DNA from: a virus | Direction: 5' to 3' (one strand) | DNA: 25,863 bases | IMG/VR virus record: IMGVR_UViG_3300032285_001212 | Span: 1-25,863 of that record | Part shown: piece by piece, positions 4,291 to 22,008 of the stretch | Layout of the letters: every line of letters starts with the position of its first letter | How positions within the stretch are numbered: the stretch's first letter is position 1 | Position numbers and translations under genes: made by a program | Notes under the pieces: generated by a model | Database searches by the model: none | What the model was told of the DNA's origin: nothing | Seen by the model: only the letters and a program-made list of their open reading frames with translations

Positions 4291-4695
4291 TTACTTGCGT
4301 TTAATGCCACGGGGATCGTCCACTACAGCCTCAACCGTATCATCATTAATGATGCGGAATTCACGGCCATGTATTACTAAACGGCTACCAGCATATGGTT
4401 TTACAAGGATAAAATCACCCTTTTTACACCATGGGCCACTCGGGAACCTAGACTTATCTGCATAGCAATCTGGGCCTAGTTCTACTACAAACAACACAGT
4501 TGTCAGCGTTTCTTCAATTCGGACAGTTTCGTCTGCCTTTAAGATACCGCTTTCAAACTCTTTTTCCTGCTCTGGAATAGCGCAAAGGATGCGATAGCCA
4601 GAAGGTTTAGGAAGTTGTGTTGCCTTTTCTTCATTTGACTTATCAAGCAGTTGCGTTAAATCTACTGCCTTATCTAAGTCGATTTGATTACTCAT
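4291..4695 (-). CDS. Phage GroES-like co-chaperonin
   Basis: A 134-residue protein with a Cpn10-type core at about residues 29-126. PKPSGYRILCAIPE matches the first strands; EFESGILKADETV (46-58) is in the place of the mobile loop, with GIL as the GroEL-contacting tripeptide; VLFVVELGPDCYADKS corresponds to the V-x-x-x-G-x-G region; KKGDFILVKPYAG (91-103) matches G-D-x-V-L-F-x-x-Y-A-G; REFRIINDDTVEAVV (111-125) is the closing strand. A 28-residue N-terminal extension and a basic tail are additional. Like T4 gp31, it would replace host GroES on GroEL and enlarge the folding chamber, here probably for the capsid or portal protein. It overlaps the upstream gene by 8 bases and lies between portal and scaffold. 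Confidence 0.82.
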   Translation of the reverse strand: MSNQIDLDKAVDLTQLLDKSNEEKATQLPKPSGYRILCAIPEQEKEFESGILKADETVRIEETLTTVLFVVELGPDCYADKSRFPSGPWCKKGDFILVKPYAGSRLVIHGREFRIINDDTVEAVVDDPRGIKRK

Positions 4696-10588: not shown

Positions 10589-10858
10589 TTAAAGCCTAGT
10601 TGTCCCTGACTGACGATAGATCCGCATCCTGACATTCGCCCAGTCATTACTTAAGGGCTTTTTATATCCATAAGCACTATCCAGCTTTTTACAAACCCTT
10701 TGCCAAAACTGCTGGAGTCTGACTTCTGAATATCCAGCGATCCGAGCCTGATTCAAGAAATCAGCCTTGACATTGAGATAATCCGAGTAATCCAAACCAG
10801 CGAGCCGATTGTGCAAACTGGATAGATCATATTCAAATGCAATCTTTCTATATGCCAT
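10589..10858 (-). CDS. 89-residue partner protein in the amidoligase operon
   Basis: Predicted helical protein starting MAYRKIAFEYDLSSLHNRLA, third gene of the operon. The frame extends to 10900, but ATG at 10858 has GAGGGG seven bases upstream and overlaps the amidotransferase gene by 11 bases, so this start is chosen. Residues about 40-70 (ARIAGYSEVRLQQFWQRVCK) look like a helix-turn-helix or helical-bundle segment. I do not recognise a family. Cotranscription with a ligase and its ammonia-supplying partner makes it a candidate substrate, carrier or accessory subunit, but nothing in its sequence, such as a terminal Gly-Gly or Gln, proves this. Confidence 0.65.
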   Translation of the reverse strand: MAYRKIAFEYDLSSLHNRLAGLDYSDYLNVKADFLNQARIAGYSEVRLQQFWQRVCKKLDSAYGYKKPLSNDWANVRMRIYRQSGTTRL

Positions 10859-11861
10859 TTTCGATCCCCTCATACTTACCCAAGTAAGGGAAACATTCAC
10901 GAGCCACTTTGTAATCCGTCATAACCTGATTAAACCAATCGATAGGTAATTGCTGATCTATCACCTGATCTATTACATCTAAGAAACCCTCAAGCCCGAA
11001 CTCATCTACAAAATCGAGAGCTTGACCGACTGTTATTCCATGAGTGAAACCCATATAGTCTAGATCATCAAGATTTGACTCGACCACAGACTCGATATCC
11101 TTCTCAGGATTTTTATAGATCCCATAAGAACCGACATCAATACCATAGGATTTTTGATAACTTACATAATCATCATCCCATAGATGATAAGAACTATAGC
11201 TATTCTTATAACTGGATCTTAATTCGGGGATCTCTTTAGCTTGCTTTTTTGCCTTTTTAGCGTTGACCTTGTTTTTACCAGCCGAACTACTGGCATCCCA
11301 AGCATAAGTATTGGAGAGCCATAGCCCAGCCCAGTAAACCCCAGCCGACTCATTTATGACCACTTGCCGACCTTCATTGTCCATTAGCACGAACTTATTT
11401 GATCCGCCAATATGATCCGCCACAAGAGCCTTAAATGCTGGATGAAATGCGAAATCGGGATTCCCTGAGAGCATAGGTTTAAGGTAATCGTTGATATAGT
11501 GCCAAGTATCCGATAGCTTCTCATTCGCTTTATTACCAGTTGATAAAATCCCATTGTGCATGAGCCACAAATCGATCCCATGCTCCGCCCGATTGAGAAC
11601 CTCATAAGGATGACAGTTGATTAAATCAATAGCACCATGAGTCCGCATCCGCAAATGGAAAGCACAATCTCGACCTTGAATATCAGAACGATAAAACTGG
11701 ATAAAATCCTTCGCAGATTTTGGAATGATTTTCTTAATGACTAAATCGCCATTGTTGGAGAACATAACCCCGACACCATCCGAATTGTAGTCATAGAAAT
11801 TTTCTAGCCAAGCATCTGAGAGAATAGGGGAAGAACTGGATTGAGTAACGAGTAAGCACAT
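10848..11861 (-). CDS. Class II glutamine amidotransferase (N-terminal cysteine glutaminase)
   Basis: A 337-residue protein starting MCLLVTQ, so Cys2 becomes the N-terminal nucleophile once Met is removed. Landmarks of the Ntn-fold glutaminase follow in order: SDGVGVMF (27-34), HLRMRTHG (69-76) with the glutamine-binding Arg, INCHPYE (81-87), LMHNGIL (100-106) with the Asn-Gly oxyanion hole, and SDTWH (117-121). It would release ammonia from glutamine for the ligase encoded two bases upstream. Residues about 200-245 are a Tyr, Ser and Asp-rich low-complexity stretch; 255-337 form an extra acidic helical domain not needed for glutaminase activity, possibly for docking the ligase. All catalytic residues I can check are present. 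Confidence 0.85.
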   Translation of the reverse strand: MCLLVTQSSSSPILSDAWLENFYDYNSDGVGVMFSNNGDLVIKKIIPKSAKDFIQFYRSDIQGRDCAFHLRMRTHGAIDLINCHPYEVLNRAEHGIDLWLMHNGILSTGNKANEKLSDTWHYINDYLKPMLSGNPDFAFHPAFKALVADHIGGSNKFVLMDNEGRQVVINESAGVYWAGLWLSNTYAWDASSSAGKNKVNAKKAKKQAKEIPELRSSYKNSYSSYHLWDDDYVSYQKSYGIDVGSYGIYKNPEKDIESVVESNLDDLDYMGFTHGITVGQALDFVDEFGLEGFLDVIDQVIDQQLPIDWFNQVMTDYKVARECFPYLGKYEGIENGI

Positions 11862-11863
11862 AA

Positions 11864-13171
11864 TTAAGCGACCTTTTTAAGTTGATTAGGGGATTGAGTA
11901 GGAAATGCAACGACTGTATTTTTTTCGGGTAAATCGAACCCTTTAGCCTTCAGATAAGCCCTGAGATTTTTGGTATCCGCCCGATTCTCATTCGCACAAA
12001 TGAATTTTAAAAAATAGTCAGTTGTGAGATTTTTAGTGCTGGATTGACGAGTGAAAAACCATGTTGCATAGGTAAATTCTAAGCACGACATTATCGTGCT
12101 ATATACCAGCGAACCCTTAAAAAGACGGAACTCAACAGTATTCGTATTTTTAAAATTAAGGGCTTCGTATCGATCCGCATTCAGACTTCTAAGCTGGGAT
12201 CTTTTAGTATCACATCCCCTTACTGCATCTTTTAGCCAGTAAGTATCATCCTTTTTATTTTTGATTTTTGCGTAATCGCTGGAGTCTCTTCTAGCTATAG
12301 CCTTAATCAATTTATGGTTTGCTTGGTCATTGATAAATAAGATCATTTTTGCACCATGCAAAGTAGTCATATCAGCCTTGCAAATATGAACGTGCAAACC
12401 GCAATTATCCGAGTCGTGAGAGATTGCACCCTTCAAACCACCCTCGGCAAAATACTGCAACTGCTCCGCATGAACATCCAGCCCAGTATAGGCAGTAACC
12501 ATCTCAAACCCATGATCTAGAGATCCGTCATTCTCACAGAGAGCATAAGTATGCCCTTGATAATCTCCGACATTTTCGAGCAATACCCCCGCCCGATCAT
12601 CACGACAATAAGAGTCTTTTATTTCCATCTCTAATTCAAGCCCTAAAAGGACTCTTGGTTTGCGATCATCATACCTACTGGGAATATGCCCTAGATTTTC
12701 AGAGCAAGTATGATACTCCCGAATATTTTGGTTTTCCTCTTCATCATCATCACGCACCCAATAATTATGACGATCCGAATAATGATAAGAATGATTTGCA
12801 CAAGACTCGCATACCGAATAATCGTCATAGCAGTTGTGTTCCTCATCTTGATGAAAAAGATTTTCGCAATCCTGACAATGGAAAAAATTATCTGAGAAAC
12901 GATCATCCATAAATGATGCCCAGCCTTGCCGACAATGGACATCCGAACGATTGATTAGATCCAATGCTTCGGAGACATCATCATCCCGAATACAGTCCCC
13001 CATAGCCCTACCGAAAGCCCAATATTGAGCCTTTGTATTTTTGCGATTCCAAGCATAAGCAAAACGATCAGAACGAAAAACACCTTTTAAATTAGCCCTG
13101 ATTTGATCCCTAAGATTAGAGATGGAATACGCATAAGCCCTACGATAAACAACTAGATTTTTTTGATCCAT
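11864..13171 (-). CDS. Amidoligase of glutamine-synthetase-like (COOH-NH2 ligase) fold with putative zinc ribbon
   Basis: A 435-residue protein. The catalytic part (about 172-375) shows the marks of the phage and bacterial amidoligase family: LLGLELEMEI (175-184) with metal-binding glutamates, DGSLDHGFEMVT (215-226), GLHVHI (258-263), RYEALNF (334-340) and TVEFRLFKGSL (345-355). N-terminal to it, Cys99/Cys102 and Cys121/Cys124 form two C-x-x-C knuckles of a likely zinc ribbon. The frame begins at 13204, but codons 1-11 contain an AGGAG site nine bases before ATG 13171, so the shorter start is chosen. It should join a carboxylate and an amine using ATP, with ammonia from the adjacent glutaminase. 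Substrate unknown; peptide, protein or cell-wall modification are the family precedents. Confidence 0.8.
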   Translation of the reverse strand: MDQKNLVVYRRAYAYSISNLRDQIRANLKGVFRSDRFAYAWNRKNTKAQYWAFGRAMGDCIRDDDVSEALDLINRSDVHCRQGWASFMDDRFSDNFFHCQDCENLFHQDEEHNCYDDYSVCESCANHSYHYSDRHNYWVRDDDEEENQNIREYHTCSENLGHIPSRYDDRKPRVLLGLELEMEIKDSYCRDDRAGVLLENVGDYQGHTYALCENDGSLDHGFEMVTAYTGLDVHAEQLQYFAEGGLKGAISHDSDNCGLHVHICKADMTTLHGAKMILFINDQANHKLIKAIARRDSSDYAKIKNKKDDTYWLKDAVRGCDTKRSQLRSLNADRYEALNFKNTNTVEFRLFKGSLVYSTIMSCLEFTYATWFFTRQSSTKNLTTDYFLKFICANENRADTKNLRAYLKAKGFDLPEKNTVVAFPTQSPNQLKKVA

Positions 13172-13210
13172 TTTTGCAAATCTCCTATATATTGCAAAGG
13201 GCAAAATTAC

Positions 13211-13246
13211 CCTATTGCAAATATAACATTAAAACAATTTAGTCAA
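13211..13246 (-). promoter_or_regulatory. Promoter candidate of the amidoligase operon
   Basis: On the minus strand TTGACT (13246-13241) is followed after 15 bases by TATATT (13225-13220), which is preceded by TG as in extended -10 promoters. It would start transcription about 40 bases before the AGGAG and ATG at 13171. The -35 box is one arm of a palindrome, so a repressor bound there would block it. The word TTTGCAATA occurs twice between -10 and ribosome binding site. Confidence 0.55.
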
Positions 13247-13399: not shown

Positions 13400-13424
13400 C
13401 CCGATCTAGGTCGGGCTTGTTTTT
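13400..13424 (+). terminator. Short hairpin with T-run in the plus-operon leader, possible attenuator
   Basis: CCCGA and TCGGG (13400-13404 and 13411-13415) form a short GC-rich stem around TCTAGG, followed by CTTGTTTTT. On the plus strand this resembles a weak intrinsic terminator in the leader of the operon starting at 13565. Its right arm overlaps the first copy of the repeat array, so it may simply be part of that array. Confidence 0.35.
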
Positions 13425-13539
13425 GGGTCAGGCTTGCTGGCCCTGGCGGAGCTTTGCCAAAATTTGTAACAACCGAAGGAGGGTCAGGCTTGTAATTGGG
13501 TCAGGCTTAGGAAGGTCAGGCTTGCAAGAGTCAGGCTTA
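13409..13539. repeat. Six iteron-like direct repeats, consensus GGTCAGGCTTG
   Basis: Copies start at 13409 (GGTCGGGCTTG), 13426, 13482, 13499, 13514 and 13529; the core GTCAGGCTT is exact in five and differs by one base in the first. Spacing is 17, 56, 17, 15 and 15 bases. They are direct repeats just upstream of the start of the plus-strand operon and downstream of the divergent promoter region. Such arrays are typical of replication origins (iterons) or of binding sites for a multimeric regulator. The frame through them on the plus strand has no acceptable start and is not regarded as a gene. Confidence 0.7.
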
Positions 13540-17702: not shown

Positions 17703-17917
17703 TTCTCTTGTGCCTTTCTTAGTATTGCTCTAGCAAAATCGTTGTAATTAAAAGTCCATAAATTTCGCTTGTCCCAGTCAAAGCTATTCTCATAAAGCTG
17801 TTTTATTTCCTCATCTGTTAGTGTCTTTAATTGTGGTGAACAAGTATGAATAGAATCCCCTGTAACTCTTTTGCCACAATCTAAACACGCAGTCCACGCT
17901 ACTGGTTCATTGTTCAT
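17699..17917 (-). CDS. 72-residue protein with a cysteine knuckle and LTDEEI module
   Basis: Starts MNNEPVAWTACLDCGKRVTG. ATG at 17917 overlaps the methyltransferase stop (ATGA) and has AGAGGA nine bases upstream; the stop overlaps the Toprim start (ATGA). C-L-D-C and C-S-P, with H25 near, look like a small zinc knuckle. The C-terminal part (LTDEEIKQLYENS to AILRKAQEK) matches the end of the plus-strand protein at 23595-23888 (LTDKEIKNIW to EIIKKAQEK), a module common in phage proteins. Function unknown. Confidence 0.65.
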   Translation of the reverse strand: MNNEPVAWTACLDCGKRVTGDSIHTCSPQLKTLTDEEIKQLYENSFDWDKRNLWTFNYNDFARAILRKAQEK

Positions 17918-19173
17918 AACAATCCATCCTCTACTTGTTGAATTCTTTGTCCAATCCAGTTCATGCAAGGGACTGCCATAGAGTTTCCCATAGCTTTATA
18001 TCGAAGACTATCGGGAGATTCACTCTTGCCTCTCCATGGGATATTGGTGTAGTCATCTGGGAATCCTTGCAGTCTTTCACACTCAATTGGGGTAAGCCTT
18101 CTAACTGCCAGTTGATTAGCAATAAAAGTCTGAGCATGATGGCTTTGAACCGAAGGTCGGAGTGCTTGGAGGGCAGGGGTTACTTCTAACTCAGTAGCGC
18201 TAAAGGTATTAGCTTTGGCATCTTCTCGAATGGAATACGCAACCCCCTGAGTAGAAGCACGATCAAGGGTATACATTACCCCATCATCACTCCAACCTTT
18301 GCCGTTCTGTGCTTTAGCTCTGCCTGATACATCCTGAATAGCAATAGGAACATTACCTCCGCCAGTTCCCCAGCGAGATGTAACAGTCTGACAAATATCG
18401 CCCATTTCTTTTACTCTAGAATCTGCTGGATGTGTCTCATACACAACAAGATCAGTAAACTGTTTGTAATCACGGGCTTTGACTGTGCTTGCCAATGGCT
18501 CATCTCCATATTGAGAATGGCTTTGACGATTAAAGGTTTCTATTCTTGATTGATTGTTGTTTCGAGCGCTTCTTGTAGAATTGGAGGAAGAATCTTTCCT
18601 CTTGTTTCTGCTCGTCTCAAGATGCCTTGACAAGCAGTCTTGCTCAAAAAGTGCTTTTGCTGGACGTTCCCAGTTTCCAAGATATCCGACAACAAAGACT
18701 CTCCGCCTCCGCTGAGGGGTGCCTCGGAAATATTGAGCGTCAAGCACTCGGTATGCGAACCCATACCCGAGTTCAGCCACCGCCCCGAGGAAGGAACCAA
18801 AATCCCGTCCTCCGTTTGAACTGAGCACACCGGGGACGTTTTCCCAAACAAACCATTTGGGTTTGTAGTGATCAAGAATTCCAGTATAGACAAGGGAGAG
18901 GTTTCCTCTTGGGTCTGCAAGTCCTTGCCTGAGTCCTGCAACGGAGAACGCTTGGCACGGTGTTCCTCCAACGAGTAAATCCAATCCTTCTGTTCCAATT
19001 TTCCACTCCTTATATTTAGTCATATCACCGAAGTTGGTGATGTCTGGGTAATGATGTTGCAATACTGCAGATGGGAACGGTTCTATCTCTGCATAACCGA
19101 CCGCTTTCCATCCAAGAGGATGCCACGCAACTGTCGCGGCTTCCACTCCACTACATACTGATAAGTAATTCAT
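17914..19173 (-). CDS. DNA (cytosine-5) methyltransferase
   Basis: A 419-residue enzyme that moves a methyl group from S-adenosylmethionine to C5 of cytosine. Ordered motifs: I LSVCSGVEAATVAW (4-17), IV GGTPCQAFSVAG with nucleophile Cys73, VI WENVPG (110-115), VIII PQRRRRVFVVGYL, IX RRLTPIECERLQGFPDD, X YKAMGNSMAVPCMNWIG. The region between VIII and IX (about 185-355) is the target-recognition part and is long. No restriction enzyme gene adjoins it, so it is an orphan, likely protecting phage DNA or altering regulation. Both neighbours overlap it by ATGA. Confidence 0.93.
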   Translation of the reverse strand: MNYLSVCSGVEAATVAWHPLGWKAVGYAEIEPFPSAVLQHHYPDITNFGDMTKYKEWKIGTEGLDLLVGGTPCQAFSVAGLRQGLADPRGNLSLVYTGILDHYKPKWFVWENVPGVLSSNGGRDFGSFLGAVAELGYGFAYRVLDAQYFRGTPQRRRRVFVVGYLGNWERPAKALFEQDCLSRHLETSRNKRKDSSSNSTRSARNNNQSRIETFNRQSHSQYGDEPLASTVKARDYKQFTDLVVYETHPADSRVKEMGDICQTVTSRWGTGGGNVPIAIQDVSGRAKAQNGKGWSDDGVMYTLDRASTQGVAYSIREDAKANTFSATELEVTPALQALRPSVQSHHAQTFIANQLAVRRLTPIECERLQGFPDDYTNIPWRGKSESPDSLRYKAMGNSMAVPCMNWIGQRIQQVEDGLL

Positions 19174-21741: not shown

Positions 21742-22008
21742 GGATTCCTCTTTTTTAATATTTTAATTTACTACAAAAACATTACTATTGGTATTAATAC
21801 TTATGAAACTGTCATTACCCATTTGGTGGACGCACTCCGCCCTAGCAGTGCGCCTTTAACCGTTACCCTTATTGGAGCCACAGCACTCGCCAGTCGTTTG
21901 TAGAATCGGCACTAGCTTCGCCACCGATATTGCGCTATTACATCTACTTCCCCAGTAACGCTTGTATTTATCTCGCTGGTGTTTCTCCTGCCGTCCAAGA
22001 TAAACCTT
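21742..22008. other. Non-coding leader of the ParB-like gene with stable hairpins
   Basis: No acceptable gene on either strand. It is more GC-rich than its flanks and contains hairpins that pair best as minus-strand RNA: an 8-base-pair stem 21829-21836 with 21847-21854 (arms CGCACT/AGTGCG extended by a wobble), and ATCGG/CCGAT at 21905-21928 with an inner GC-GAA-GC. The last part before ATG 21741 is AT-rich and holds GAGGA. It is either the 5' leader of the ParB-like message or a second RNA. Confidence 0.45.

Follow-up and report, generated by a model that had tools for sequence, protein, structure and literature searches.

An amidoligase-glutaminase gene pair shared by phages and integrative elements of Polynucleobacter

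Introduction

Why would a phage carry an amidoligase next to a glutaminase, and how many genes make up the system? These questions were raised by a linear virus record of 25,863 bases (hereafter the window, that is, the whole 25.9-kb fragment analyzed), in which three minus-strand ORFs follow each other in the order amidoligase, glutaminase and a third gene encoding an 89-aa protein. A first-pass annotation had read them as one operon that would make an amide on some target with ammonia taken from glutamine, and had proposed the third protein as substrate or carrier. Here, the conservation, the genomic surroundings and the predicted structures of the three products were analyzed.

Results

Layout of the operon and its surroundings

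The ORF calls agreed with the annotated arrangement, in which the amidoligase and glutaminase genes are separated by a gap of 2 bases (Table 1). The third ORF overlaps the 3' end of the glutaminase gene by 11 bases and is probably translationally coupled to it; GGAGA, AAGG and GAGGGG, read directly, lie 5' of the amidoligase, glutaminase and third-gene starts, respectively. The shared terminator placed behind the third gene was recovered as a terminator-like hairpin followed by a T-run. By contrast, the single promoter postulated for the whole operon could not be established, since 17 of 100 shuffles gave an equal match to the promoter pattern and a standard promoter scan reported none at that position. 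Gene layout and motifs were confirmed, and the promoter is a possible one. An imperfect inverted repeat just upstream of the amidoligase start, the core of which is kept in six aligned relatives, is a possible operator or leader hairpin; folding of the leader was weak (z = -1.9).

Beyond the operon, the minus strand probably encodes a small terminase subunit, to judge from weak matches; the large terminase subunit that follows is clear, and after it come a portal protein and then a capsid-type gene. Neither an integrase nor a lysis gene was found among the ORFs scanned in the fragment. A GroES-like co-chaperonin gene lies among the head genes, and a C-5 cytosine DNA methyltransferase gene among the replication genes. 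Five direct repeats (0.19 expected by chance), located before divergent plus-strand genes, occupy a matching position in L002/L011, L004/L012, L005, L006/L014, L010 and L013, and constitute a candidate operator, origin or RNA element. The window also encodes a member of an sRNA family, Betaproteobacteria-1 RNA, carried here by a phage and absent from ten related loci. This RNA, together with the Polynucleobacter and OM43 carriers of the pair described below, hints at a betaproteobacterial host, whereas the terminase relatives of the window phage, which infect Pelagibacter and gammaproteobacteria, point elsewhere.

Table 1. Positions of features in the window (bases), in the two enzymes (residues) and in Polynucleobacter loci (locus:bases)
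Feature	Position	Strand	Details
Amidoligase ORF	ATG 13171 to stop 11864	-	435 aa
Glutaminase ORF	ATG 11861 to 10848	-	337 aa, Met-Cys start
Third ORF	ATG 10858 to 10589	-	89 aa
Terminator-like intrinsic hairpin closing the operon	10561-10542	-	AACCCCTATTCGTAGGGGTT then TTTTTT
Possible promoter of the pair	13246-13220	-	TTGACT-N15-TATATT, consensus match only
Conserved imperfect inverted repeat	13185-13217	-	TTGCAAAGGGCAAAATTACCCTATTGCAA, directly upstream of amidoligase start
Direct repeats	13424-13538		five copies of GTCAGGCTT
GroES-like co-chaperonin gene	4291-4695
C-5 cytosine DNA methyltransferase gene	17914-19173
Betaproteobacteria-1 RNA	21885-22005	-	Rfam RF02932, 93 bits
Amidoligase, N-terminal helical part			Cys cluster C99-x2-C102 / C121-x2-C124
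Amidoligase, catalytic domain	about residues 166-414
Amidoligase motifs			GxExE (G177, E179, E181), ExDGS (E213, D215), GFE (E223), SH (S251, H252), CGxH (H260), RR (R294, R295), RxE (R334, E336), ExR (E347, R349)
Glutaminase motifs			Met1-Cys2; R71; T74-H75-G76; H102-N103-G104; S117-D118-T119; S183-N184
Glutaminase, linker	residues 216-253		disordered
Glutaminase, C-terminal tail	residues 256-323		helical
416-aa protein gene	L072:7683-8933		between pair and HicAB
SIR2-HerA and AIPR gene	L073:7467-10456; L074; L085:9034-10746		Polynucleobacter integrative elements
Nucleotidyltransferase-like gene and membrane partner	L085:2727-4264		CBASS-like by eye only

Both enzymes keep their active sites

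The amidoligase scored 26.9 bits with Pfam Amidoligase_2 (PF12224), above the cut-off of 22 (29.3 bits for its Polynucleobacter homologue), and matched phrog_16683 (E 2e-21). In the predicted structure (pLDDT 84.9), residues 166-414 matched the GS fold with Z about 9.5-11.5 and rmsd 3.2-4.4 over 164-222 residues. Structural neighbours included YbdK (1r8g, Z 11.4), glutamate-cysteine ligase (2gwc, 10.7), glutamine synthetases (9.5-11) and gamma-glutamylmethylamide synthetase. The likeness to YbdK-type carboxylate-amine ligases, glutamate-cysteine ligase and glutamine synthetase (Z 10-11.5) concerns the catalytic-domain fold, at 7-16% identity; by contrast to them, the window enzyme has an N-terminal domain of its own with a Cys cluster, and none of those three is known to have a dedicated glutaminase partner. 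Members of the close family have cysteines 99, 102, 121 and 124, which distant lineages retain only in part, and this region may bind zinc. As the annotation had claimed, the active-site motifs are intact: G177, E179, E181, E213, D215, E223, H260, R294, R295, R334, E336, E347 and R349 were invariant in 33 aligned amidoligases, and a search of the alignments for loss of the metal-binding glutamates found none lost. By sequence and model, the protein is a GS-fold member of Amidoligase_2, predicted to form amides in an ATP-dependent manner.

The glutaminase scored 18.1 bits with GATase_4 (PF13230), below the cut-off of 23, and is accordingly not filed as a curated member of that Pfam family. Its motifs are nevertheless complete: C2, R71, T74, H75, G76, H102, N103, G104, S117, D118, T119, S183 and N184 were invariant in 33 aligned glutaminases, most of this set, Cys2 included, is kept in distant phage relatives, and all 47 full-length copies listed start with Met-Cys, in line with the intact active site first proposed. 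Residues 2-215 of the model (pLDDT 82.1) matched GlmS (Z 10.7), EgtC (10.3) and PurF (9.6). Motifs and modelled fold hence assign the protein to the class II glutamine amidotransferases despite the sub-cut-off GATase_4 score, probably as a glutaminase subunit. No solved structure close in sequence to either enzyme was found, and no PADLOC model matched the two window proteins.

The pair is the conserved unit

Scans of IMG/VR found the amidoligase in 9 loci and the glutaminase in 55. The amidoligase gene lies directly in front in every glutaminase locus that has upstream DNA, amounting to 48 of 52 distinct loci; in L051, L052, L063 and L065 the contig begins inside the glutaminase gene, so that the amidoligase is cut off. 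The next commonest neighbour of the pair occurred in 14 of the 52, and the recurrent neighbours with known function were mostly terminase, portal and replication genes; no wall, lysis or metabolic gene recurred beside the pair. Loss of linkage in relatives had been looked for, and linkage was found. Distance matrices of the two enzymes were correlated over 30 close loci with r = 0.91 (best of 2000 permutations, 0.23), a value that joint inheritance as one cassette would give, that cannot tell co-evolution from joint inheritance and that is no proof of physical contact. Both enzymes are under purifying selection (dN/dS 0.08-0.14). The amidoligase-glutaminase pair is therefore the unit, with obligate adjacency, and the two genes very probably form one enzyme.

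The pair travels in phages and in Polynucleobacter integrative elements

The pair occurs widely among freshwater phages. Annotated carriers include Marvin and related mycobacteriophages, the OM43 phages MEP401/402, Acinetobacter phage vB_AciJM_313 and a podovirus of environmental origin. Its phages have large terminases of at least two families, indicating that the pair moves between lineages. Among bacteria the pair is rare: 3 of 186 Polynucleobacter genomes carried it, and it was absent from a sample of about 800 genomes of the order and phylum to which this genus belongs. A contig scan gave distant copies in Azoarcus, Candidimonas, Oxalobacteraceae, Burkholderiaceae and Mucilaginibacter assemblies; for plasmid carriage, there was one weak match only.

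Each of the three Polynucleobacter pairs is found beside a tyrosine integrase gene; the element around it also encodes a relaxase and a conjugation coupling protein, and no phage structural genes were recognized near the pair. In a quick tree these copies fell inside the phage-borne family. Between two elements the DNA of the pair region is 92-94% identical and the backbones about 71%; the pair region being far above the backbone level, a recent exchange of the pair as one cassette is probable. Such cargo, beside SIR2-HerA or HicAB, is new here. In two of the three elements SIR2 and HerA are next to the pair (PADLOC E 7e-85 and 1e-183), and in the third a 416-aa gene and then HicA/HicB. The defence-gene neighbourhood is suggestive only: L073 and L074 are near-identical, leaving about two independent cases, and cargo near integrases is often defence-related for any gene.

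Three side observations concern these loci (Table 1). The 416-aa protein, with no Pfam or PADLOC match, is a possible defence candidate. SIR2-HerA is accompanied by an AIPR gene in the elements of L073, L074 and L085. L085 also holds a nucleotidyltransferase-like gene with a membrane partner, which has no Pfam match and resembles CBASS by eye only.

An activity that mainly drains glutamine and ATP, aborting infection or inhibiting growth with no specific product, would suit the company of SIR2-HerA or HicAB in these elements, and both activities could be wasteful if uncoupled. Obligate pairing and correlated divergence instead suggest a coupled synthetase, and we regard a drain as most improbable. 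Elements lacking recognized phage structural genes carry the pair, which makes a phage or virion protein unlikely as the only substrate. Of the three targets offered by the annotation (host wall, phage protein or small molecule), a purely phage-protein target was thereby weakened. The integrative-element context favours modification of a host component to the benefit of the resident element.

The third gene is lineage-specific

The only relative of the 89-aa protein was encoded in L065, in the same place behind the glutaminase gene, and is 79% identical. The gene is under purifying selection (dN/dS = 0.21), and its product gave no Pfam match and no significant PHROG match. The three closest relatives (L011, L003 and L012) have no homologue behind the glutaminase gene. 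When all loci are taken together, the genes that come first downstream sort into about 30 unrelated clusters or lie only beyond a gap. The third gene is real but lineage-specific. As a conserved component of the system it was rejected, given its presence in a single other locus and the variation of the downstream genes, and for the same reason the part of general substrate or carrier once assigned to it was not upheld.

This bears on the proposal that the pair modifies the 89-aa protein or a virion protein of the phage, as in ribosomal peptide or structural-protein modification. The shared operon and the overlap with the glutaminase gene speak for it. Against it stand the near-absence of the gene elsewhere, the change of the next gene between lineages and the pairs in elements with no recognized structural genes. 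A glutaminase partner, moreover, implies ammonia as the nucleophile, which argues against protein-protein crosslinking, a reaction that needs an amine side chain. Such a substrate is very improbable.

Discussion

The pair is of a known kind, reportedly predicted by Iyer and colleagues, and the phage precedent invoked for it was found. In Marvin (gp105/gp106) and in MEP401/MEP402, a homologous amidoligase (phrog_16683/phrog_22302) directly precedes a homologous glutaminase (phrog_25883) on the same strand, with the gene order and catalytic residues of the window pair. These pairs differ in identity (about 20-30%), phage lineage and gene surroundings, and the amidoligase of Marvin is extended by a long additional C-terminal stretch. 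PMC5498523 and PMC10580990, citing Iyer and colleagues, describe a larger phage cassette, predicted to modify peptidoglycan and thereby block superinfection. This cassette (phiEco32, LUZ24, tf, UFV-P2, PSA-HP1 and Stenotrophomonas phage StenR_269) likewise combines Amidoligase_2 with a class II glutaminase, but adds ATP-grasp, gamma-glutamyl cyclotransferase and further ligase genes. A single-sequence search with StenR_269 queries found none of these additional members in any ORF of the pair loci, and family scans run on the ORFs of the window and on the recurrent neighbours showed none either. The pair is a minimal form of the predicted cassette.

Bacteria themselves use a scheme that is alike in principle, the two genes of MurT/GatD serving an ATP-driven amidation with glutamine as the ammonia source. 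MurT is Mur-ligase-like and GatD a class I-type glutaminase, with folds unrelated to those of the window pair, so that the comparison is an analogy only. Glutamine-dependent amidation of stem-peptide carboxylates by this host system is established (PMC3267633).

It is possible, if somewhat unlikely, that the pair amidates a peptidoglycan stem-peptide carboxylate (D-Glu or meso-diaminopimelate), with effects on receptors, lysins or infection by rival phages. The prediction published for the larger cassette and the host precedent both support such a target. Occurrence in mycobacterial and proteobacterial phages would suit a bacteria-wide substrate, and the pair is carried by integrative elements too; yet the other cassette members are absent near the pairs, and no wall gene recurs there. 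About as likely as this literature-predicted modification, and thus itself rather unlikely, is amidation of a small-molecule metabolite, either in auxiliary metabolism or to make a signalling or inhibitory amide. YbdK, glutamate-cysteine ligase and gamma-glutamylmethylamide synthetase, among the structural neighbours, act on small molecules, although these are fold-level matches at 7-16% identity and no metabolic gene recurs beside the pair.

On balance, the pair probably encodes a two-subunit, glutamine-dependent amide synthetase on a mobile cassette, whose target would most likely be a host component and whose activity would benefit the resident element. At Cys2, the glutaminase would set ammonia free from glutamine; using ATP and metal ions, the GS-fold amidoligase would activate a carboxylate and join the ammonia to it as a primary carboxamide. 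With a class II glutaminase beside a carboxylate-activating ligase, this product, already put forward in the first-pass annotation, is the simplest and best reading. The pair behaves as a self-contained cassette, exchanged horizontally, that belongs to phages and to one or more families of integrative elements in bacteria. Its target may be a carboxylate of a peptidoglycan precursor or else a small metabolite, and amidation could, for instance, render the cell less suitable for competitors. Of the original interpretation, the enzymes, their linkage and motifs and the phage precedent have been retained; a general role of the third protein as substrate or carrier is not supported, and a phage protein is unlikely to be the only target.

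More tentatively, and with considerable doubt, the amide synthetase may serve an exclusion or defence system common to phages and integrative elements, in which an amidated host component would stop competing phages from infecting or from completing infection, a two-gene cassette sitting beside SIR2-HerA and similar systems. Phage amidoligase-glutaminase pairs have been catalogued for about 15 years, with a role that, in the literature cited here, has so far been a prediction. The present survey reduces the system to two genes, and the small third protein drops out as a general substrate. Carriage by integrative elements beside defence genes points to a benefit for the host, and the idea of exclusion by amidation becomes testable.
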